Shown: one piece after another, positions 9,135 through 19,182 of the stretch
Layout of the letters: every line of letters starts with the position of its first letter
How positions within the stretch are numbered: position 1 is the first letter of the stretch
Assembly: GCA_025463555.1 (NCBI GenBank)
Contig: JAODAS010000204.1
Span: 1-32,126, forward strand
Origin: Schumannella sp.
GTDB lineage: Bacteria; Actinomycetota; Actinomycetes; Actinomycetales; Microbacteriaceae
Reading direction: 5' to 3'
DNA length: 32,126 nucleotides
The notes under the pieces: model-generated
What the model saw: only the letters and a program-made list of their open reading frames with translations
Database searches by the model: none
What the model was told of the DNA's origin: nothing
Translations under genes and position numbers: made by a program

Positions 9135-9974
9135 TCAGCGCACCGATTTCCGCTCGTAGATCGCCATCGACCAGGCGTACCCGCCGACCGCGATCACAAC
9201 GGCCCAGCCGATCGCGAGCCAGGCGTTCCAGCCGAGCGGTGTTCCGAGCAGGAGACCGCGGACGGTCTCGATGAACGGGGTGAACGGTTGGTACTGTGCG
9301 AACCACTGGAGCCACTCCGGCATCGACGCGGTCGGTACGAAGCCGCTGCCGAGCATCGGGAGGATGGTCAGCAGGAGGGGCCAGTTGCTGGCCGTCTCGA
9401 CCGACTTCGCCTGTATTCCCATGGCGACGCCAAGCCAGCTGATCGCGTACGCGATGAGCACGATCAGGCCAGCCACAGCGATCCACTCGACCGGTCCCGC
9501 CGTCGGGCGGAACCCGACCAGCAGGCCGACCCCCAGCACGAGCGCGACGGCGATCAGCGCCTGGATGGTGTTGCCGAGCACGTGCCCGGCGAGCACCGAG
9601 GCCCGCGAGATCGCCATCGTGCGGAACCGTGCCGTGATGCCCTCGGTCATGTCCATCGAGACCGTGGTCGCGGTGCCGCCGGCGCTGCCCGCGATGGTGA
9701 TCAGCAGAATGCCCGGAATCACGTACGCGAGGTACGCGTCCCGCCCGCCGGCGGGGTCCACCCCGGGCAGGCCGGCCCCGAGCGTGCCGCCGAAGACGAA
9801 CACGAACAGCAGCAGGATCACGACCGGGCCCAGGATGGTGAACACCGACAGGCCGGGGTAGCGGATCATGTGCAGCAGGTTGCGGCGCAGCATCGTGATC
9901 GCGTCGGCGACAACGTGCGACTCCCGACGGGTGCCCGTGGCCGTCTGGCGCTGGGCGGTGATGGTGGTGGTCAT
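9135..9974 (-). CDS. ABC-2 type exporter permease (DrrB-like)
   Basis: A 279-aa permease with about six membrane helices. It has the typical N-terminal segment (ADAITMLRRNLLHMIRYPGL) and a first helix (FTILGPVVILLLFVFVFGG). The extracytoplasmic loop leads to YLAYVIPGILLI, then the cytoplasmic MDMTEGITARFRTMAISRAS motif of the ABC-2/DrrB family. The conserved late motif MLGSGFVPTASMPEWLQWFA and PFTPFIETVRGLLLG complete the pattern. It should form the channel of an efflux pump for a hydrophobic drug, lipid or peptide; the substrate is unknown. Its ATG overlaps the ATPase stop as ATGA, and AAGGGA lies nine bases upstream. Confidence 0.9.
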   Translation of the reverse strand: MTTTITAQRQTATGTRRESHVVADAITMLRRNLLHMIRYPGLSVFTILGPVVILLLFVFVFGGTLGAGLPGVDPAGGRDAYLAYVIPGILLITIAGSAGGTATTVSMDMTEGITARFRTMAISRASVLAGHVLGNTIQALIAVALVLGVGLLVGFRPTAGPVEWIAVAGLIVLIAYAISWLGVAMGIQAKSVETASNWPLLLTILPMLGSGFVPTASMPEWLQWFAQYQPFTPFIETVRGLLLGTPLGWNAWLAIGWAVVIAVGGYAWSMAIYERKSVR

Positions 9975-10933
9975 GATTCGATTCCCTTCGTGTCGACCCG
10001 GCCGGACTGATCCTTCTTGCCGGTCAGGGCGAAGAACACGTCATCGAGATCGGGGGTGTGGATGCTGAGGTCGTCGACCTCGAGGCCTGCCACATCGAGG
10101 CGCTCCAGCACGGTGCGCAGCGCGCCCACGCCGCCGTCACTCGGTACGGTGAGCGCGAGCGCATCGTCGTCGCGAGCGGACTCGTCGAGCAGGCGCGATG
10201 CGGCGTCGAGCGCCGCGCCATCTGCGAACCGGAGCCGGATGTGCCCGCCGGGAACGAGGCGCTTGAGCTCGTCCGACGTTCCCTCGGCGACGATACGGCC
10301 GCCGTCGAGTACCGCGATGCGGTCTGCGAGCTCGTCCGCCTCGTCGAGGTACTGGGTGGTCAGCAGCACGGTCGTGCCCTCCGCGACGAGATCGCGCACG
10401 ATGTCCCACATCGTGTGGCGGCTACGCGGGTCTAGGCCCGTGGTGGGCTCGTCGAGGAAGATCACGCTGGGCGTCGAGACCAGGGTCATTGCCAGATCGA
10501 GGCGGCGCTTCATCCCGCCGGAGTAGGTGGCGAGTGGCTTGCGGGCGGCCTCGACGAGGTCGAACTGCTCGAGCAACTCGGCCACCCGTGCCTTCGAGCG
10601 CTTCTCACCGAGGTGGCGCAGCCGGGCCATCAGCAGGAGATTCTCCTCGCCGGTGAGCAGGCCGTCGACCGCGGAGAACTGGCCGGTCAGGCCGATCACC
10701 GCACGCACGCCGTCCGGATCGCGAACTACGTCGCATCCGTTCACGGATGCCGTGCCGCCGTCGGGCCGCACGAGCGTGGACAGGATGTGCACGGTCGTCG
10801 TCTTGCCGGCGCCGTTGGGGCCGAGAAGCGCAGTGACCGTGCCCGCGTCCACGGTGAGGTCGATGCCGTCGAGCACGACCTTCTTGCCGTAGGACTTGCG
10901 AAGTCCGTGAACTTCGATCGATGGGGTGTTCAT
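9971..10933 (-). CDS. ABC exporter ATP-binding protein (DrrA-like)
   Basis: A 320-aa ATPase starting MNTPSIEVHGLRKSYGKKVV. It has Walker A LLGPNGAGKTTT, the Q-loop LTGQFSAVD, signature YSGGMKRRLDLAM, Walker B VIFLDEPTTGLDPRSR and the switch region VLLTTQYLDEADELADRI. The C-terminal extension of about 90 residues is as in daunorubicin-type DrrA proteins. It powers the permease encoded next to it. I chose ATG 10933, with AGAAAGG ten bases upstream; the much longer reading to 11443 is an antisense-like extension through the DUF4097 gene. It belongs to the RHH, DUF4097, ATPase, permease operon. Confidence 0.92.
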   Translation of the reverse strand: MNTPSIEVHGLRKSYGKKVVLDGIDLTVDAGTVTALLGPNGAGKTTTVHILSTLVRPDGGTASVNGCDVVRDPDGVRAVIGLTGQFSAVDGLLTGEENLLLMARLRHLGEKRSKARVAELLEQFDLVEAARKPLATYSGGMKRRLDLAMTLVSTPSVIFLDEPTTGLDPRSRHTMWDIVRDLVAEGTTVLLTTQYLDEADELADRIAVLDGGRIVAEGTSDELKRLVPGGHIRLRFADGAALDAASRLLDESARDDDALALTVPSDGGVGALRTVLERLDVAGLEVDDLSIHTPDLDDVFFALTGKKDQSGRVDTKGIES

Positions 10934-10953
10934 GCGTTTCGTACCTTTCTGTC

Positions 10954-10982
10954 GGTGTGCTGAATCTGTTGGTGTGCTGAAT
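10954..10982. repeat. 12-bp direct repeat before the ABC ATPase gene
   Basis: GGTGTGCTGAAT occurs at 10954-10965 and 10971-10982, 17 bp apart start to start, between the DUF4097 stop and the ATPase start. The first ten bases occur a third time at 11907-11916, in the gap between the RHH gene and the DUF4097 gene. All three copies lie in gaps of the same operon. On the transcribed strand they read TCAGCACACC. Their role is unknown; slippage or an RNA or protein binding site are possible. Confidence 0.6.
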
Positions 10983-10985
10983 TCA

Positions 10986-11828
10986 TCAGGCGCGTCGGAC
11001 GTTGATGTCGCCGAACTGCGTGCGCGCACGGATCGCGACGGTGTTCTCAGACGCATCGGGAACGCTGTCACCGTCGAGTTCGTTGCGCACACGCCCGTCC
11101 TTCGACGACAGGTCGAGCCAGGCGGGGACGCCGGGGCGCACGCCGATCGTGACCTGGCCGAAGCCGCTCTCGACCTGGACAGAACCGCTCGAGATCTCTC
11201 GAAGCTGGATGCTGCCGTATGCGGTCTTCGCCGCAACAGAGGCGAGCGCCTTCGTGATCTCGAGGTCGCCGTAGGAGAGCTTCGCGTCGAGGTCGCCGCC
11301 GGACTCCCCGACCGTGATGCTGCCGTGCGACGATTTGAGGATCGCGTCGCCGGTGACGGTGCCGACTCGGATCTGTCCGTGGTCGGCCGTGATCTCGATG
11401 CCGCCCTCGGCGGTACCCACGGTCGCGTTGCCGTGCGACGCACGCAACCACAGATCGCCCGTGGCGTCGACCTCTACGGCACCAGTCGAGGCTTTGATGC
11501 GGGTGGCGCCAAGGCGACCCACGGTGCGCACGCCGCCGACCGAGATCTCGGCGGTGAGCCGCGACCCCGTCGGCAGCTCGATCTTCAGGTCGACAGATTC
11601 GGTAGGGCCGATGACGCTGAAGCGGGGCTTGGGGCCGGTGACCGTGAGGCGCTGGCCGTCGAAGTCGACTTTGGTCTCCTCCGCGCCTCGGCGGTCGACC
11701 GCCTTCGTCGGGTTGGTGGGCGACACGGTAACGATCGTGTCCGCACGGTCGCTGGCGAAGACCTCGATGACCCCAACCGGTAGGTTGATGGCGAGGTCGA
11801 TGGGGGTGGGGGTGGTGAAGGTGGGCAT
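10986..11828 (-). CDS. DUF4097 beta-strand-repeat protein
   Basis: A 280-aa protein with no signal peptide or membrane helix. It starts MPTFTTPTPIDLAINLPVGV and then alternates short strands and G-[DN] turns, such as LSYGDLEIT, SSHGSITVGES, ADHGQIRVGTV and TAYGSIQLREI. This is the right-handed beta-helix-like DUF4097 pattern. In actinomycetes such genes often sit with ABC exporters, but their role is not established; a scaffold or sensor is a guess. The start at 11828 has only a modest GGAC site. It lies 93 bp after the RHH gene and 52 bp before the ATPase gene in the same direction. Confidence 0.82.
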   Translation of the reverse strand: MPTFTTPTPIDLAINLPVGVIEVFASDRADTIVTVSPTNPTKAVDRRGAEETKVDFDGQRLTVTGPKPRFSVIGPTESVDLKIELPTGSRLTAEISVGGVRTVGRLGATRIKASTGAVEVDATGDLWLRASHGNATVGTAEGGIEITADHGQIRVGTVTGDAILKSSHGSITVGESGGDLDAKLSYGDLEITKALASVAAKTAYGSIQLREISSGSVQVESGFGQVTIGVRPGVPAWLDLSSKDGRVRNELDGDSVPDASENTVAIRARTQFGDINVRRA

Positions 11829-12557: not shown

Positions 12558-13223
12558 CTAGGCCGCGTCGGCCTCTTTGAGCCTCTCGGCTAGGGCCTTG
12601 CCGCATTCGGCGGCCGTGGCGTGTGCGCGCTCGAGGTTCTGGGCTGCCATTTCACGGAGTTCGGCAAGCGCAGGATTGACGTTCGCGGCGGTCAGTTCCA
12701 CCTCGACGACCTTGAGATCCAACCCCCAGATCTTTCCCAAGATCAGCTTCAGCCACTCCGTCGCGTGGTCCCAGCCTTCACGAGGGGTGCCCGGGCCGTA
12801 CGTACCACCGCGGGCGATCACCAGGAAGGCCGGCTTTCCCGCGATCGGGTTGGCAGACCTGGGGGAGAAGCGCGGGTCGGCAATGAGCACGTCGATCCAC
12901 GCTTTCGCATGGGGCGGCACTCCGAAGTTATACATCGGGATCGCGAAAATGAAAGCGTCGGCCCGGGACAGTTCGTCTCCAAGGTCAGCGGCCAGCGCCA
13001 GCGCCTCGTGCTGTCCAGCGGTCCTTTCGGCGTCTGCGGTGTGGGACCCGGCCAATGCGTCCGCCCATACTGTCGATGGAAGCGGCCTGCTACCGACGTC
13101 TGTCCGGATGACTTGTGTCTCTGGGGCGGCCGCGAGCAGCGCGGATTCCAGGCTGTCGGCGACCGCCCGGGTAACCGAGCCCTCGTAACGGATGCTTGCG
13201 TCAAGCCGAAAGATTGTAGTCAC
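12558..13223 (-). CDS. FMN-dependent NAD(P)H azoreductase/quinone reductase-like flavoprotein
   Basis: A 221-aa flavodoxin-like enzyme. It starts VTTIFRLDASIRYEGSVTRA, with the phosphate-binding loop S-I-R-x-x-G-S-V-T. The middle has ADAFIFAIPMYNFGVPPHAK followed by AWIDVLI, the FMN-binding P-M-Y-N-F-x-x-P motif of AzoR-type enzymes. RGGTYGPG is the second flavin contact. The enzyme should transfer two electrons from NAD(P)H to quinones or azo compounds. The GTG at 13223 is the start, since the longer reading runs into the HxlR gene. No strong ribosome site is visible. It is divergent from the HxlR regulator at 13335, a pairing typical of quinone- or electrophile-responsive detoxification. 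Confidence 0.87.
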   Translation of the reverse strand: MTTIFRLDASIRYEGSVTRAVADSLESALLAAAPETQVIRTDVGSRPLPSTVWADALAGSHTADAERTAGQHEALALAADLGDELSRADAFIFAIPMYNFGVPPHAKAWIDVLIADPRFSPRSANPIAGKPAFLVIARGGTYGPGTPREGWDHATEWLKLILGKIWGLDLKVVEVELTAANVNPALAELREMAAQNLERAHATAAECGKALAERLKEADAA

Positions 13224-13246
13224 GGAATGGGCCCCCGATAGTTGAT

Positions 13247-13281
13247 ACTTACTGTTAGTGCGTTGCCCATCATCAGTTAGT
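13247..13281. promoter_or_regulatory. Candidate HxlR operator between azoreductase and regulator genes
   Basis: ACTTACTGTTAGT (13247-13259) fits the dyad ACTNACNGTNAGT, with five of six possible pairs symmetric. GTTAGT recurs at 13276-13281, 22 bp from the first GTTAGT, about two helical turns. Both lie in the 111-bp divergent intergenic region, close to where the azoreductase promoter should be. HxlR-family sites often have this kind of ACT/AGT symmetry. Confidence 0.45.
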
Positions 13282-13334
13282 TTTGCGACGCTTACAAAAG
13301 GCACAATCGTGTTCGTTGAAACGGAGAGGTCTAC

Positions 13335-13799
13335 ATGGCGACCCGAACACCGGCATTTGAGTCGAACGCAGCCGAGCACAGTCGCGCTGGGATGTCCGAG
13401 TATGAGAGCGCGTGCACGGCGGGCGGCCGTGGTGAGGCAATCCGTAGTGTGCTCGGCCATATCGGCGACAAATGGACCTTGCTGATCGTCGGCGCACTTT
13501 CCGCGGGACACCGATTGCGGTTCACGGAGCTCCAACGGCACATACCCGGCATCTCGCAGCGGATGCTGACGGTAACCCTCCGTCACCTGGAGCGCGACGG
13601 TCTGGTGCGTCGCACGATGCACGCCGAAGTCCCGCCCCGAGTCGAGTACGAGCTCACGAGCATCGGCAGAACTCTCATCGAACCGGCTCGTGAGCTGAGT
13701 CGCTGGGCCGTGAACAGCTACACGACCATCCTCGACAGCCGTGAGCAGTTTGACGCCGCTGGCGCGAAACCGAAGCGACGCGAAGGTCGGAAGGACTGA
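13335..13799 (+). CDS. HxlR family transcriptional regulator with a single cysteine
   Basis: A 154-aa winged-helix regulator. After a 25-residue N-terminal tail comes ESACTAGGRGEAIRSVLGHI, then GDKWTLLIVGALSAGHRLRF, TELQRHIPGISQRMLTVTLR and HLERDGLVRRT, the full HxlR helix-turn-helix and wing. The only cysteine (Cys27) is at the position used for thiol sensing in YodB/HypR-type relatives. A redox or quinone-sensing repressor is therefore likely, though this is inference. GGAGAGG before ATG 13335 gives a good ribosome site. Its basic C-terminal tail (PKRREGRKD) is unusual. It probably controls the divergent azoreductase gene and itself. Confidence 0.9.
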   Translation: MATRTPAFESNAAEHSRAGMSEYESACTAGGRGEAIRSVLGHIGDKWTLLIVGALSAGHRLRFTELQRHIPGISQRMLTVTLRHLERDGLVRRTMHAEVPPRVEYELTSIGRTLIEPARELSRWAVNSYTTILDSREQFDAAGAKPKRREGRKD

Positions 13800-13840: not shown

Positions 13841-14911
13841 TCACCCGACGGGCGTCGGCGCCTGCACTTCTCCGAGCGCACGCTCGACGGCCTCCTGCAC
13901 GCGTGCGTCTTCGCGGGCCTGCTGTTGCGTACGCTGGCGCTTCAGCAGGCGGAGAGCCAGGACCACCAGAGCGGCCAGGGCGACGACGAGCAGCAGGAGC
14001 ATCCATGGCACAGCCCACCCGTTCGCGGTGGCCGCGATCGGTTCGAGAGCCGTCGTCGAGCCGGACGCGTCGGTGACCACCGGGGTGACGGTGGCAGTGG
14101 CGCTAAGCAGGATTGTGGCAGCAACATTGGAGACGGGAACGGTCACGTCCCAGCTCTCTCCCGGCAGCAATTGCGGCGGAGCATCGATCGCGCCCGCGTC
14201 TGTGGGCAGCCACCCGAACGGACCGGCAACGCCCGCGGTCTGCTGTGCGGACAGCGCGGCGTTGCCCGTGTTGTGGATCGTGTAGGTCATGGTTGCGTCG
14301 CCGCCAGCGAACGGGTTGAGCCCACCGTTCCAGTTGACCTGCATGTCCTCGATCGCAAGGCTCGGTGCGAGCTCGCCGCCCACACGGAGGGCGATACGGA
14401 TGCCGAGCCGCCGATCGACGTTGATGCCCGCCGTCTCGTCGGTCTGGCCGAGGGAGGTGACGATGCCACCGGCGTAGTCTCCAGGCGTCGCATTTTCGGG
14501 CACGCTCACGGTGAAGGGAACCTCGACCGTCTCGCCCGGGCCCACGGTGATGCTGTCGGTCTTGCCCTGCACCCAAGCGCCGACGGCCACGGATTCCGCG
14601 TCGCCGACGACAAGGTCGAACTGGCCGCTGTCCGTCGTGTATCCGTCGGCTGCGTAAACGCCGAGGTCGAGCGCCGTGTCCCCGTGGTTGACGACCACCA
14701 GGGCGTCCTCGACCGTCGAGCCCGGGTTGACCGTGTAGTTGTAGCTGGTCCGGTCCGCTCCGAAGTCATTGGAGGCCGTGCGGACTGTCCAGGTGACGTC
14801 GTCCTCGGCCGCGTGTGAGGCGCCGGCGGGTGCCAGCAACAGGCCCAGCATGACGAGCAGCGCAAGGACGGCGGTGTGGATGCGGGCGGAGTTCGTGGCT
14901 AGTGCGTACAT
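13841..14911 (-). CDS. DUF916 (WxL-partner) membrane-anchored surface protein
   Basis: A 356-aa protein with a signal peptide (LLVMLGLLLAPAGASHAAE), two immunoglobulin-like extracytoplasmic domains and a C-terminal membrane helix near residues 300-322 (AVPWMLLLLVVALAALVVLA). A basic, helical cytoplasmic tail follows. The first domain has the DUF916 pattern: SYNYTVNPGSTVEDALVVVN, GDTALDLGVYAADG, VPFTVSVPENATPGDYAGGI, RLGIRIALRVGG. In Firmicutes, DUF916 proteins partner with WxL-domain proteins and bind peptidoglycan or host ligands. Here the gene upstream on the same strand encodes a phosphoesterase with a WxL-like domain, which supports the same pairing. GAGGA lies five bases before ATG 14911. 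Confidence 0.85.
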   Translation of the reverse strand: MYALATNSARIHTAVLALLVMLGLLLAPAGASHAAEDDVTWTVRTASNDFGADRTSYNYTVNPGSTVEDALVVVNHGDTALDLGVYAADGYTTDSGQFDLVVGDAESVAVGAWVQGKTDSITVGPGETVEVPFTVSVPENATPGDYAGGIVTSLGQTDETAGINVDRRLGIRIALRVGGELAPSLAIEDMQVNWNGGLNPFAGGDATMTYTIHNTGNAALSAQQTAGVAGPFGWLPTDAGAIDAPPQLLPGESWDVTVPVSNVAATILLSATATVTPVVTDASGSTTALEPIAATANGWAVPWMLLLLVVALAALVVLALRLLKRQRTQQQAREDARVQEAVERALGEVQAPTPVG

Positions 14912-14948
14912 GGTGATCCTCAGCGGTCGGGGTGGAGAAAGTCGAATG

Positions 14949-14988
14949 CCCGGTGGGGTGGGCGCCGAGCGGCGTCCACCCCACCGGG
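14949..14988 (-). terminator. Strong hairpin between the WxL-like phosphoesterase and DUF916 genes
   Basis: Bases 14949-14961 pair perfectly with 14976-14988. The stem continues through one G-T pair and four more pairs to a four-base loop (14967-14970), about 18 pairs in all. It lies between two same-strand genes that probably work together, so it may attenuate rather than end transcription. No T-tract follows on the minus strand. Confidence 0.6.
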
Positions 14989-15003
14989 GTCAGTCGGTAT
15001 CGA

Positions 15004-16998
15004 TCAGTTGCTCAGTGCAGTGATGGTCAGGGTGGCGCGGTAGCTACCCTTGTCGATGGTGCCCGGGATCTTCAGGTCCAGGTCGGCGCCGAGCGTAGCG
15101 GTGCCTCGCGCGTGACCTTGGTCTGCCCAACCGAGAGCCCGGGCGACGGACAGGCCGAGGCCCGCGTCGTATCCGGACGGAATTGCAGCACCCGGTACGG
15201 CGCCGGCACCGGCCTCGACCAGTTTCGGAGTCCAGCCGAGGTATTCACCCGAGAACGTCTGGGTGCCGTCTCGGAAGTCCCCGACCGACGCGGAGATCGA
15301 CCATGGGGCGAGCGATTGGCGGGTGTCCGAGACGGTGATCGGGTTGATCTGGCCCGTCGCCTCGAAGTAGTCGCCGTTGTGGTCCACGGCTGCGCCGAGG
15401 TCTACCAAGCCGTTACGACCGTCGATCGTCCAGCCGAACTCTCCCGGAGCGGCGTTCGGGACCGCTACCTGGATGTCCTGCCCGTTGCCGTGGTTGGGGT
15501 GGATCGTCACGGAGTCGACGATCGAGCCGACCGGCTGGGCCGCCGACGCGCCGCTGTCCGGACCGCACCAGGACTCCTGGCCAAGCTCAACGGCCGCGTT
15601 GGGAGCCGCGCACGTGCCGCTGCGGATGTTTTCGACGACGAGCTGGTCGTTCTGCACCTGCACCTTGACGTACGTGCGAACGTGCTCCTGGTCCTGGACT
15701 GAGTTGTACCAGTAGCTGCCCGGGTTCAGCGGGTCCGCACCGTTACCGGCACCGCTGGTGCCGCTCGAGTCCGGAGCCGTGATGTCGTAGTACTTCGAGC
15801 CCGAGGCAGAGTTGGCGGTCACGTAGATGACGCCGCCGGGGCCGGTGTACACATCCGCGGCGCCGGGCTGTTCGTCCGCGTTGGCCTTGGCGCCGTTCTT
15901 GATCTCGTAGCTGCGCGTGTAGACGTGGTCGTGACCCTGGAGTACGAGGTCGACACCCAGGTTGGAGAACGTCGTCGGGAAGTCGACGCGGCGCACCTTG
16001 GCGTCGGCATCCTTAGCGTGGGACGCTGCGGAGTAGATCGCGTGGTGGTAGACGAGAACCGTGTACTTCGCCTCGGCACCGTGCTGGTTGACCACATCGG
16101 TCACGTAGGCGATGTGTGCCTCGTCGCCGCCGCCTCCTGTCGAGGTCCTGTAGCTGTTGCTGTTCAGGTCGATGAACAGTACGTCTTTGTAGATGTACCA
16201 GTAGTCGCCACCGGACGTGGTGTTCCCTGCGGGGGCGCCGTTCGCGTAGTACGCACCCGCGCGGTCGGTGTTGGGTGTGTACAGGTGCTGCTCGTACGCC
16301 TTGCCACCCACGTCGTGGTTTCCGATGGTCGCGGCCCACGGGTACTGGCGCAGCTTGTCCGGAGCGAGAAACGCGTTCCACTGGGTCTCGGTGTTGGCGG
16401 TTTCGACCTGGTCGCCGCCCGAGACGAGGATCTCGGTGTTCGGGTTGGCCGCAAGAGCCACATCCAGTGTGTCCTGCCAGCCGGCTCCGTCCCTGGCGAT
16501 GTCGCCCGACGAACCGATCTGCGGGTCGCCGAAGAACAGGAAGTCGAACGCGCCGTCGAACGACTGCGTCTTGAACGCGTAGGTCGGCGACCAGTTGCCG
16601 TCGAAACCGACCCGGTAGGAGTATGCCGTGTTCTCGGTCAGGCCGGAAAGCGTGGCGTGGCGGTTGAATCCGCCGCTCGTCGCGATGTTTGCCGTGCCGG
16701 CGGCGGAGAATGTGGCGGCGTCGGCCGGGAACTCGCCACTGACGATCGCCGACGTCGGCGCCAACTCCACCGACTGCGCGGAGTCGGTCGAGGAGTACCA
16801 GGTGACGATGCGCTGGGACTCGTCTGCTCCGACGCCGAGGATGACGCCGGTCAGGTTCGCAGCATCGTCAGCCATCGCCGGTGCGGCGGCGAAGCCACCA
16901 ATGGCGACGGACGTGCCGAGGGCGACGGCTGTGAGCCACACCGACGTACGGTGGCGATTTCGCCACGATGGTTGTGCGATTGCACTGGGGGAGGACAT
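15004..16998 (-). CDS. Secreted purple-acid-phosphatase-like metallophosphoesterase with C-terminal WxL-like domain
   Basis: A 664-aa exported protein. The signal peptide ends near AAAPAMADD (about residue 43). A fibronectin-III-like purple acid phosphatase N-domain spans about 48-145. The calcineurin-type catalytic domain follows with GDPQ (157-160), GGDQ (194-197), GNHD (226-229), YHHA (317-320) and QGHDH (354-358), all the expected dinuclear-metal ligands. Residues about 490-664 form a separate domain with INPITVSD, PWSISASVGDFRDG and SGEYLGWTPK. It ends LKIPGTIDKGSYRATLTITA, the shape of WxL cell-wall-binding domains. The proximal WxL is WSI (566-568); the distal Trp is replaced in TITAL (658-662). 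It should hydrolyse phosphoesters outside the cell while held on the wall. Substrate unknown. Confidence 0.88.
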   Translation of the reverse strand: MSSPSAIAQPSWRNRHRTSVWLTAVALGTSVAIGGFAAAPAMADDAANLTGVILGVGADESQRIVTWYSSTDSAQSVELAPTSAIVSGEFPADAATFSAAGTANIATSGGFNRHATLSGLTENTAYSYRVGFDGNWSPTYAFKTQSFDGAFDFLFFGDPQIGSSGDIARDGAGWQDTLDVALAANPNTEILVSGGDQVETANTETQWNAFLAPDKLRQYPWAATIGNHDVGGKAYEQHLYTPNTDRAGAYYANGAPAGNTTSGGDYWYIYKDVLFIDLNSNSYRTSTGGGGDEAHIAYVTDVVNQHGAEAKYTVLVYHHAIYSAASHAKDADAKVRRVDFPTTFSNLGVDLVLQGHDHVYTRSYEIKNGAKANADEQPGAADVYTGPGGVIYVTANSASGSKYYDITAPDSSGTSGAGNGADPLNPGSYWYNSVQDQEHVRTYVKVQVQNDQLVVENIRSGTCAAPNAAVELGQESWCGPDSGASAAQPVGSIVDSVTIHPNHGNGQDIQVAVPNAAPGEFGWTIDGRNGLVDLGAAVDHNGDYFEATGQINPITVSDTRQSLAPWSISASVGDFRDGTQTFSGEYLGWTPKLVEAGAGAVPGAAIPSGYDAGLGLSVARALGWADQGHARGTATLGADLDLKIPGTIDKGSYRATLTITALSN

Positions 16999-17127
16999 GA
17001 GTGGTCCGTTCTCTTAGGTTCCCGGGATGGGAACTGGTTTGCACTGATCAAGATTCGCGGGCTGGATGAACGTCTGTTGAACGTGAGCCTCCGTGTCAGT
17101 AACACGCGGGGAAATACCACAGCCGCC

Positions 17128-18342
17128 TCACAGGCCGAGCACACGTTCCACGAACCAGACGAGCCCGGCTACGGACACAGACACGGCAATGGCGCCTGCG
17201 GCCCACAGGCCGATCCGCGGTGCGCGGCGGCGCAGCAGGGCCAGCAGCGGAAAGAGCGCGGCGATGATCGTGAGCTGGACGACCTCGATCCCGACGTTGA
17301 AGACGAGCAGCGACCACAGAAGCGTCCACGACCATGGCTCGTCGATGCCCAGCGCACTCGCGAAGCCAAGCCCGTGCACGAGGCCGAACAGGAACACCAC
17401 GGCCAGCCGCACCCATCCGGCGCGGTCGAGGCCGAGAGGGCCGCCGGTCGGGTCGAGGTTGTTGGTTGCATCTCCGCGGCGCCAGAGCTGCCACAGATAC
17501 CAGGTGGCAACGACCGCGATCGACAACGCAATGATCGGCTCGACCATCCGGGACGGCACGGAAACCAGCCCAGTCGAGGCCAGAATGAACGTCACAGAAT
17601 GCGCCACCGTAAATGTGGTGGCCGCGAGCACCACTTCGCGCAAACGCCGCGATCCCACGATGAGCGCCAGCAGGAACAGGATGTGGTCGATCCCGCTCAG
17701 CAGGTGCTCAGCGCCAAGGTGGAAGAACTCCCAGAAGCGCTCGCCAGTACTCTGTTCCGTCGAGAATGAGGGCTGTTCTGAATCGAGCGCGGCGCTGCCC
17801 GATCTGCCGTCGATCTCGTACGTGAGGATGGTCTTGGTCCCCGTCACATAGCCTTCCGAGTCGCCGAACAGCTTGCTCGTGATCACGTGCGCGTCGGTCA
17901 GCGCTGGGCACGTGTCTTCGAGAAGGAGCACGGCGTACAGCGCGCCCTGCTGTTCGGTCATCGTGATGTCGCCCACGCTCTTCGGGGTGCACGGCTCGTC
18001 GCCCGACGTGACCGTGAAGCGGCTGGTCACATAGGCGAGAACCGTGTCGATGTGGTCTTCGAGAGCGGTCGCTTGAGCGGTTGCGTCGCCGCCCTCGAAC
18101 GCAGCAGTGCCGTCTTGGAAGAGCGGGTCGTCACGCTCGGCGTCCGCTGCGGAGACGACCAGAAGGTCGTATTCCAGCTGCAGTTCGGTCGTGACGCGCC
18201 CCGCTTCGCTCGAACTCACATCGGCGTACACGACCGAGGTGAAGCCGTGCGCAGAGGCCGGTCCCGCAGTAAGCGCACCGATCGTCAGCGCGATTAGGCC
18301 CAAGAGAAGGGCAAGGACAGAGCGGCGTGCGCCGTGCGACAT
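17128..18342 (-). CDS. HupE/UreJ-like membrane protein with large extracytoplasmic domain
   Basis: A 404-aa protein with a signal peptide cut before H32 (PASAHGF), an extracytoplasmic domain of about 170 residues, then about six membrane helices. The membrane part has the family signature FFHLGAEHLLSGIDHILFLL (206-224), TFTVAHSVTFILA (243-255) and FGLVHGLGFASALG (319-332). Histidines 208, 213, 220, 248 and 323 are candidate metal ligands. Related HupE/UreJ proteins are linked to nickel handling, but no hydrogenase or urease gene is present here. It lies first in line with the phosphoesterase and DUF916 genes; a 5-bp hairpin (17092-17106) sits in the 129-bp gap after it. AAAGGAG four bases before ATG 18342 sets the start. 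Confidence 0.83.
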   Translation of the reverse strand: MSHGARRSVLALLLGLIALTIGALTAGPASAHGFTSVVYADVSSSEAGRVTTELQLEYDLLVVSAADAERDDPLFQDGTAAFEGGDATAQATALEDHIDTVLAYVTSRFTVTSGDEPCTPKSVGDITMTEQQGALYAVLLLEDTCPALTDAHVITSKLFGDSEGYVTGTKTILTYEIDGRSGSAALDSEQPSFSTEQSTGERFWEFFHLGAEHLLSGIDHILFLLALIVGSRRLREVVLAATTFTVAHSVTFILASTGLVSVPSRMVEPIIALSIAVVATWYLWQLWRRGDATNNLDPTGGPLGLDRAGWVRLAVVFLFGLVHGLGFASALGIDEPWSWTLLWSLLVFNVGIEVVQLTIIAALFPLLALLRRRAPRIGLWAAGAIAVSVSVAGLVWFVERVLGL

Positions 18343-18519
18343 TGGTCTCCTTTGGTCGGCCAGTCGGGGGACAGAGTGACCCGAGTCGGTGAACGAAAGG
18401 GAGATCGCGGGCAAACGGCTCGGGAACAGTCACCGGGGCACGTGGTGGTCTGCCCGGTTCTGAAGCATGCTGGAATCGCTTTTTGCTTGTGCGCATCGCG
18501 CCCTGAAGAATGGATACCC

Positions 18520-19182
18520 TTGCGCCCCCGACCCACGACCGTCGCGTCGCTGACGACAGCACTTCTCGCCGCTGCCCTTCTCTCCGGCTGCGCAGGGGAC
18601 AGCTGGGCTGAGCCGCATGCCGCGCCCGTTCCCGTCGGCACTCTCGGGGCGGGCTTCGAACCGTCATCTGCGCCCAGTCCGGAGGCGACGATCAGTCCGA
18701 CAGCGGGTTCGTGGGACGACGTGCATCCGTCGGCGGGCTACCGGGTGGTGCTCCTCACCGCGGGTGACGACGGCCCGACTCGGACCTTGATAGCCGCTAT
18801 CCGCGAGTGGGCGGGCGAGGAGAGCGTCGACCTCCGCACGGTGGAGGCCGACGACCAGCTCATCGACGGGATCGTCGAGGCGATCGACCTGAAGCCGGAC
18901 CTCATTGTGAGCGCCGGCAACGACCTCATCGACCCACTCGCGACGGTCACCGCAAGCCACCTCGATCAGCAGTTCCTCGTGGTCGGCGCCGAGGTAGCCG
19001 AACCGACGCATAACGTCACCGCGGTCGACTGGAGCGGAGCATCGTTCCGTGGTGAAGGACTCGGTGCCTCATCGACTTACGACCCTGAATCCTTTACTGA
19101 CGAGCGCTGCGCGGCCGCGGTGCGCGCTGGAGTCGCAGCGGTGCTCCACGACCTGACCGGCATCGTGATCTGGATCGACTGA
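18520..19182 (+). CDS. BMP-like (periplasmic-binding fold) lipoprotein
   Basis: A lipoprotein of about 220 aa. The basic start LRPRPTTVASLTTALLAAAL leads into the lipobox LLSGC, with Cys24 as the lipidated residue. A Pro/Ser/Ala linker follows, then GYRVVLLTAGDDGPTRTLIA, a segment DLKPDLIVSAGNDLIDPLAT, then HLDQQFLVVGAEVAEPTHNV and DWSGASFRGEGLGASS. This resembles the ligand-binding fold of BMP/PnrA-type lipoproteins, but only part of it is present at this length. I recall similar lipoproteins in Microbacteriaceae without known function. The start is uncertain: TTG 18520 gives a normal signal peptide, whereas the longer reading from 18334 does not. It is divergent from the HupE-like gene across 177 bp. 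Confidence 0.7.
   Translation: MRPRPTTVASLTTALLAAALLSGCAGDSWAEPHAAPVPVGTLGAGFEPSSAPSPEATISPTAGSWDDVHPSAGYRVVLLTAGDDGPTRTLIAAIREWAGEESVDLRTVEADDQLIDGIVEAIDLKPDLIVSAGNDLIDPLATVTASHLDQQFLVVGAEVAEPTHNVTAVDWSGASFRGEGLGASSTYDPESFTDERCAAAVRAGVAAVLHDLTGIVIWID

Follow-up and report, generated by a model that had tools for sequence, protein, structure and literature searches.

We analyzed a 32,126-nucleotide (nt) stretch of the genome of Schumannella sp. (Microbacteriaceae), referred to here as the window (assembly GCA_025463555.1, contig JAODAS010000204.1, positions 1 to 32,126 of the forward strand). On its minus strand, the window carries genes for a HupE/UreJ-like membrane protein (HupE), a secreted metallophosphoesterase that has the fold of the purple acid phosphatases (PAPs) and a WxL-like C-terminal domain, and a DUF916 protein of the WxLIP type. 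Upstream of these genes lie PHO-box-like repeats and a divergent lipoprotein gene. We propose that the locus probably is a phosphate starvation module with a wall-docked phosphatase. The features of the locus are the following.

13841..14911, minus strand: gene for WxLIP (356 residues) with a DUF916-like first immunoglobulin-like (Ig-like) domain, a second Ig-like domain, and a C-terminal membrane helix (from Pfam, profile comparison, and a structural model)
14459..14773, minus strand: WxLIP_PGBD (DUF916) domain, PF06030
14949..14988, minus strand: GC-rich stem-loop in the phosphatase-WxLIP intergenic gap (paired segments of 13 bp and 4 bp around one mismatch, loop GCTC; pairing assigned by eye)
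15004..15531, minus strand: WxL-like C-terminal domain, residues 490-664 of the 664-residue phosphatase (core ~500-664, ~165 residues), from hhalign comparison with Bacillota WxL domains
15004..16998, minus strand: gene for the secreted PAP-fold metallophosphoesterase with the C-terminal WxL-like domain (664 residues; from Pfam, a structural model, and invariant residues)
17128..18342, minus strand: gene for a candidate metal-capture permease with an Ang-2-type N-terminal domain and a HupE/UreJ-2 membrane domain (404 residues; PF13795)
18384..18427, minus strand: PHO-box-like operator of four 11-nt direct repeats of the GTTCACC type (score 20 of 28; 42-85 nt before the HupE start)
18520..19182, plus strand: divergent lipoprotein gene with a lipobox LLSGC assigned by eye, weak PnrA/Bmp likeness, and a putative TTG start

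A conserved four-gene locus

The three minus-strand genes lie where the initial annotation had placed them, and their products scored above the Pfam cut-offs: the phosphatase matched Pur_ac_phosph_N (E value [E] 3.4e-16) and Metallophos (E 3.3e-10), WxLIP matched WxLIP_PGBD (E 3.3e-10; 40.5 bits versus a cut-off of 27.3), and HupE matched HupE_UreJ_2 (E 2.3e-37). Pfam gave no DUF3324 match in WxLIP, NCBIfam gave 0 matches for HupE, the phosphatase, and WxLIP, and an Rfam scan of the whole window gave 0 families at the gathering threshold. The span of 13841-18342 previously assigned to the module does contain the three genes, but the module extends to 19182, as the divergent lipoprotein gene and the PHO-box-like array had been overlooked.

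For comparison, we used the best 80 of 92 loci picked by similarity to the phosphatase, which are mutually related and form a non-random sample. From these, we aligned the phosphatase (A1; 53 rows from 52 of the 80 loci), WxLIP (A2; 54 rows from 53 of the 76 loci with WxLIP), HupE (A3; 40 rows from 39 of the 71 loci with HupE), and the phosphatase C termini (A4; 29 rows from 28 of the 69 loci with a WxL-like domain). In the window, gaps of 92 nt and 129 nt separate the phosphatase gene from the WxLIP and HupE genes, respectively. A WxLIP gene is located immediately 3′ of the phosphatase gene in 76 of the 80 loci, and in the other 4 (L009, L011, L020, and L069) the phosphatase gene is at most ~150 nt away from the contig end. 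HupE is located 5′ of the phosphatase gene in 71/80 loci; the 9 loci without upstream HupE retain phosphatase, WxLIP, and lipoprotein, and in 6 of these, a distant relative of HupE is encoded farther downstream in the opposite orientation. The gene order is kept across many actinobacterial genera; a lack of such conservation would, according to the initial annotation, have refuted the proposed module.

An ortholog of the lipoprotein is present in 78/80 loci, and in the 2 loci without it (L009 and L026), HupE lies at a contig edge. We also examined a further set of 60 regions, which were hand-picked from longer match lists and do not include the WxL-less candidates G617 and G621. In this set, the lipoprotein gene lies beside 14 of 15 phosphatase genes, whether or not these encode a WxL-like domain, and the miss (L183) is at a contig end. 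All 6 scanned lipoproteins resemble the N-terminal third of PnrA/Bmp, with E of 0.0085-0.36 and all below the cut-off.

Within the Microbacteriaceae, the distribution of the phosphatase is patchy, with any match in 34 of 100 genomes (that of the window included) and a match of at least 300 bits in 15 of 100; the one other listed genome of the window's genus had no phosphatase match. The window genome, which is 77% complete, contains one WxL-like domain and one WxLIP. The gap between the phosphatase and WxLIP genes contains a perfect stem of at least 9 bp in 25/75 loci versus 6/375 random stretches, a count that does not include the imperfect stem of the window. This stem-loop may set the ratio of phosphatase to WxLIP product. 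In Planotetraspora phitsanulokensis (L036:11308-14092), a second phosphatase-WxLIP pair follows right behind the first, and its phosphatase has no WxL-like domain.

PHO-box-like repeats upstream of the operon

According to excerpts of PMC4415409, PHO boxes in Streptomyces coelicolor consist of direct repeats that are 11 nt long and share the core GTTCACC, and such repeats precede pstS and phosphatase genes under PhoP control in Streptomyces. To score arrays of this type, we used four 11-nt units (maximum 28) within 250 nt before the first gene, or upstream of the phosphatase gene in the 9 loci without HupE, and a threshold of 17 that was set after the scores had been seen. Of 79 upstream regions, 71 scored at least 17. 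Random stretches taken from these loci did so in 39 of 790 cases and dinucleotide-shuffled sequences in 11 of 395 cases. Most arrays lie on the coding strand 67-85 nt before the start codon.

Canonical pstS genes had an array at or above the threshold in 19/20 cases, including that of the window genome (score 22), and PstS-like paralogs in 0/10 cases; this split was made afterwards by identity on 30 loci out of a longer match list. Random stretches of the pstS loci reached the threshold in 29/300 cases, and as these loci are short, some of the stretches may overlap real boxes. In a specificity control, in which random stretches reached the threshold in 31/1040 cases, phosphatases without a WxL domain had an array in 4/6 cases. 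WxL-like genes with other cargo had one in 3/44 cases, and one of these three (L143) encodes a metallophosphoesterase domain. The 44 genes comprise 42 of 58 non-PAP reading frames together with L048 and L215, one or two per locus, with starts assigned by a simple rule. The difference between the phosphatase regions (71/79) and the other WxL genes (3/44) supports that the array tracks the phosphatase and not the WxL domain. While the Streptomyces genes are PhoP regulated, PhoP control of the window operon is suggested by the array. The conserved array also lends independent support to the phosphate-scavenging reading offered in the initial annotation.

The terms HupE, DUF916, and metallophosph- do not occur in the main text of PMC7244524, which deals with the S. 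coelicolor Pho regulon. An enrichment of 9-mers before HupE was considered as a second regulatory motif and dropped, because the conserved stretch is coding sequence of the divergent lipoprotein.

A WxL-like domain and its probable WxLIP partner

The proposal that the last 175 residues of the phosphatase form a WxL domain stands in substance, but not as membership in PF13731. Pfam gave no PF13731 match for the C-terminal domain of the window protein itself; WxL was the best Pfam match for 5 of 6 scanned phosphatase C termini, with E of 0.009-0.054 and under the 25-bit cut-off. Using hhalign, we compared A4 with an alignment of eight Bacillota WxL-type sequences (A5), of which six are in proteins annotated as WxL, one is unannotated, and one has a record that names another domain. 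This comparison gave an E of 1.8e-6. A broader WxL-like profile (A6) matched A5 with an E of 3.7e-10; A6 includes L090, which was found via PF13731 and is absent from A4, and this second comparison is therefore biased towards WxL. In control comparisons with a DUF916 alignment, E was 0.26 and 0.026. Two sites in other genomes (G204:C1:1526779 and G225:C1:1218368) were matched by both A4 and, below its cut-off, PF13731.

The first motif of the domain reads V-S-D-T-R...P-W-S-I, in which Trp is invariant in A4; most rows continue with x-I/L/V, and the window sequence is WSI. The second W-x-L motif reads LTITALS and has lost its Trp, so that the domain lacks the two W-x-L motifs of PF13731, and a nearly invariant LGWxP is new. 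Based on the sub-cut-off PF13731 matches and the profile homology, the tail of the phosphatase is a remote homolog of WxL domains rather than a Pfam member. The structural model of the phosphatase has a mean predicted local distance difference test score (pLDDT) of 71.4; for residues 541-660, taken in blocks of ten, the score is 81-93. The list returned by a structure search with the whole model was filled by PAP matches and thus covers the PAP part alone. PDB sequence searches that used WxL sequences or profiles as queries returned either no match or 7 unrelated matches at E of at least 0.19, although the title of entry 9i25 names a long WxL.

The assignment of the DUF916 protein is strengthened by comparisons beyond PF06030. 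In a profile comparison, WxLIP matched five Bacillota DUF916 proteins with an E of 8.4e-11 over 236 columns. The best structural match of the WxLIP model (pLDDT 86.1) is the Enterococcus faecium WxLIP 9i25_C (Z 17.1, root mean square deviation [rmsd] 5.0, 240 aligned), from an entry whose title describes a WxLIP with a long WxL bound, followed by 9i1y_A (Z 16.2, rmsd 5.3, 240 aligned) and then by a fimbrial chaperone (Z 12.5). The matches to 9i25_C and 9i1y_A span residues 38-304, and the protein has the two tandem Ig-like domains and the C-terminal helix of a WxLIP. A C-terminal hydrophobic 19-mer is present in 74/74 WxLIP orthologs long enough to test, of 76.

The pair is not confined to the phosphatase. 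Among 296 genomes of the class, 47 contain the A4 domain, with up to at least 11 domains in one genome among the matches listed (the counts per genome are lower bounds). WxLIP is present in 46 of these 47 genomes versus 42 of the 249 without the domain, in two genome searches that used unequal E limits of 1e-3 and 1e-10, with the genomes counted irrespective of their relatedness. In the 60 chosen regions, WxLIP comes directly after 38 of the 58 WxL reading frames that are not phosphatases, 40 of 45 non-phosphatase WxL loci contain WxLIP, and 8 of 9 phosphatases with a WxL-like domain are followed by WxLIP. The cargo domains above Pfam cut-offs include HtaA, GDPD, GH18, X-Pro peptidase, and metallophosphoesterase, and the cargo also comprises a PstS-like binding protein; L147, for instance, encodes a GDPD-type enzyme with a WxL-like domain. 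PF13731 was found below its cut-off in 7 of 20 scanned cargo proteins.

PstS-like binding proteins with a C-terminal WxL-like domain are encoded at L048:13912-15810 and L215:1288-3147. In L048 (Actinacidiphila glaucinigra), this gene is encoded on the strand opposite to the phosphatase operon, ~2.8 kb past it. Neither gene has an adjoining WxLIP gene in the sequence examined or an array at the threshold. Nine regions (L139, L148, L151, L156, L158, L161, L165, L167, and L174) contain two to three WxL-like genes together with a single gene for WxLIP (in L156, two frames) and thereby resemble the commonest Bacillota cluster.

The six phosphatases without the domain in this set all come from the window's family, and no WxLIP was found in their regions. 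Among these, L188-L190 end in the sortase-type signals LPYTG, LASTG, and LPSTG, respectively, L187 has LAVTG in another frame, and two further phosphatases end in Ig-like and basic stretches. A tree built from 97 phosphatase cores places the WxL-like domain in both deep clades and requires three changes; as the tree is midpoint rooted, the direction of these changes is tentative. The replacement by sortase-type signals is the best, if indirect, evidence that the WxL-like domain is a wall anchor. These relatives carry the tails of sortase-anchored (LPxTG) enzymes on the same phosphatase core. A tail of this kind is absent from the window protein, which is probably anchored by the WxL-like/WxLIP pair instead.

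More broadly, and with more reservation than conviction, we consider it possible that Actinomycetota have a general non-sortase display route, in which a divergent WxL-like domain and WxLIP would dock nutrient-acquisition exoproteins on the wall (the phosphatase, GDPD, an HtaA-type heme protein, chitinase- and peptidase-type enzymes, and perhaps the PstS-like protein) and would be evolutionarily exchangeable with LPxTG. The PAP module, with this dock, a PhoP-controlled phosphatase, a metal-capturing permease, and a binding lipoprotein, would then be one surface unit that couples hydrolysis, metal supply, and product uptake.

Proposed function of the module and competing explanations

The Pfam domains and the fold agree with the earlier description of the enzyme as PAP-like. 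The phosphatase has an N-terminal hydrophobic signal-like segment (assigned by eye), and the closest solved structures to its model are red kidney bean PAPs (6hwr_C; Z 32.7, rmsd 3.1, 362 residues aligned). Residues D158, D196, N227, H228, H318, H356, and H358 are invariant in 53/53 rows of A1. Like plant and mammalian PAPs, the enzyme combines an N-terminal fn3-like domain with a metallophosphoesterase domain; it differs from these by its ~18% identity, by GDxQ and DxxE in place of GDxG and DxxY, and by the added WxL-like domain. E199, the third residue after D196, is E in 51 and D in 2 of the 53 rows, and we take it to occupy the Tyr position of the PAP motif DxxY, placed by motif spacing; the structural alignment is ambiguous there. 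Given its divergent GDxQ and DxxE motifs, the enzyme probably lacks the Tyr ligand that makes PAPs purple. Judged by its fold and the invariant residues of metal ligand type, the PAP-fold domain would release phosphate from organic phosphates.

Building on the gene identities, gene order, domain homology, fold match of WxLIP, and operator-like repeats described above, we suggest the following working model. PhoP would bind the array between the divergent genes and switch on lipoprotein, HupE, phosphatase, and WxLIP. The phosphatase would be exported, and its PAP-fold domain would free phosphate from organic phosphates. Its WxL-like domain would dock onto WxLIP, which would be held in the membrane by its C-terminal helix and touch the wall; the enzyme would thereby stay on the cell surface. 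Support for docking comes from the homology to the WxL/WxLIP proteins of Enterococcus and Lactobacillus, the strong co-occurrence, and the sortase-type tails that replace the domain in relatives. HupE, via its domain with an N-terminal histidine, would capture a transition metal for the enzyme or for the cell. In the weakest step, the lipoprotein may bind a dephosphorylated product, e.g., a nucleoside.

The same arrangement could serve a different substrate. Bacillus PhoD and GlpQ recycle wall glycopolymer phosphate under phosphate starvation. Similarly, under phosphate starvation the docked enzyme could act mainly on the wall glycopolymers of its own cell, cleaving their phosphodiester or phosphoryl groups, instead of scavenging external phosphate. 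Docking would set the enzyme beside wall polymers, the array is compatible with both readings, and the GDPD-type enzyme of L147 also bears a WxL-like domain. However, the fold is closest to those of plant PAPs and phytases (Z 28-33), with PhoD (2yeq_A) at Z 20.9, and while this order of matches leaves the substrate unsettled, we regard wall recycling as the main activity as unlikely.

HupE adds a link to metals. Based on excerpts of PMC12537917 (2025), Actinomycetota have Ang-2-HupE/UreJ-2 proteins ("anglerases") with an N-terminal histidine, often near metallophosphatases and DUF916. The window protein has the same two-domain architecture, the histidine after signal cleavage, the host phylum, and the neighbors in common with these, and its H213, H220, and H248 have the spacing of the published His194, His201, and His229. 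The mature N terminus is of the A|HGF type in 71/71 HupE orthologs (cleavage site assigned by motif). Ang-2 of Microbacterium maritypicum is reported to bind Cu2+ with a Kd of 62.3 nM and to show a smaller shift, i.e., weak stabilization, with Fe2+ (PMC12537917). This published work fits the earlier suggestion that HupE is a possible metal transporter. It also narrows the claim of a distinct actinobacterial surface system: the gene order is conserved as proposed, but the HupE/metallophosphatase/DUF916 neighborhood is already described there. Section 8 of that paper does not name the PHO array, the lipoprotein, or the WxL-like domain of the phosphatase.

Metal acquisition could even be the main task, with HupE/Ang-2 at its core and the phosphatase freeing metals, or phosphate, from metal-phosphate complexes. 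The upstream HupE in 71/80 loci, the N-terminal His in all 71 orthologs, and the metal binding of Ang-2 are in agreement with this explanation. Against it, the operator looks like a phosphate box, and the nine loci without upstream HupE keep the remainder of the module; we therefore consider it quite improbable.

Several observations weigh against a phosphate starvation module with a docked phosphatase. First, 8 of the 79 upstream regions are under the array threshold, and in the further set, 5/8 phosphatase operons with WxL reach it and 3/8 miss it. Second, the PF02608 match of the window lipoprotein is below the cut-off (E 0.035). Third, Cu2+, the best ligand of Ang-2, is to our knowledge not a usual PAP metal. 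Fourth, the L183 phosphatase has a WxL-like domain and no WxLIP within 6 kb downstream. Finally, in 11/80 loci (L067-L069 and L071-L078) the phosphatase has no recognizable WxL-like domain (9 with a short tail and 2 with another domain), and 10 of these 11 still carry WxLIP, with the eleventh (L069) ending at a contig edge. The presence of WxLIP is thus not explained by the WxL-like domain alone: in the domain-less loci, either the tail is held by WxLIP in some other manner, or there is a partner that has escaped recognition.

The retention of WxLIP in these loci, together with the missed PF13731 cut-off and the missing second Trp, would also fit a C-terminal domain that is an ordinary beta-sandwich accessory domain and no wall anchor, with WxLIP binding something else. 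This is difficult to reconcile with the profile homology to WxL, the genome co-occurrence of domain and WxLIP, the C-terminal position of the domain on unrelated exoproteins directly before WxLIP in most of the non-PAP frames, and the sortase-type tails that stand in for the domain in some relatives. We consider it very improbable and favor the docked phosphatase.

The phosphatases of L067-L069, L071-L076, and L036:11308-12873 end in a short WLQ or TxLS tail with WxLIP adjoining, except in L069 (contig end). In Solirubrobacter (L077 and L078), the phosphatase next to WxLIP has a different C-terminal domain (VGGTVP...KTLTFTLSTTNP), which is possibly another WxL-type domain; a search of 149 genomes from the phylum located the L078-type domain in 2.

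As far as excerpts of PMC10599100 and PMC9772566 describe them, WxL clusters are known mainly from Bacilli, have mostly adhesin-like cargo, and comprise small WxL, large WxL, and WxLIP. The window operon has in common with them, and with PDB entries 9i25 and 9i1y, a C-terminal WxL-type domain on a secreted protein and an adjoining gene for a WxLIP of two Ig domains and a C-terminal membrane helix, with the fold match at Z 17.1. In contrast to these clusters, it encodes one WxL-like protein and no small WxL, its apparent control is PHO-like, and its cargo is an enzyme instead of an adhesin; the domain itself is under the PF13731 cut-off, has lost the second Trp-x-Leu, and has gained LGWxP. In the open literature searched, which does not include subscription papers and preprints, we found no report of a WxL-like-tailed or WxL-anchored phosphatase, nor of a PHO box before the operon, membership of the lipoprotein, or an exchange with LPxTG. 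WxL/WxLIP have so far been seen mainly as host-binding tools of gut Bacillota, and here a related pair carries an apparently phosphate-controlled enzyme in many actinobacteria. Some relatives bear sortase-type signals on the same enzyme, which makes anchoring by WxL/WxLIP directly testable by enzyme assay in harmless strains. The model also suggests a likely function for a conserved four-gene actinobacterial locus of mostly uncharacterized genes and would connect phosphate nutrition with the recently described metal proteins of the Ang-2-HupE type.

Elsewhere in the window, a flavodoxin-like oxidoreductase gene (minus strand) and a divergent HxlR-type regulator gene (plus strand) adjoin the module at 12558-13799. 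At 9971-11828, a DUF4097 protein with weak LiaG likeness is encoded beside an ABC-ATPase-like reading frame (assigned by eye), and these two may form an envelope stress unit.

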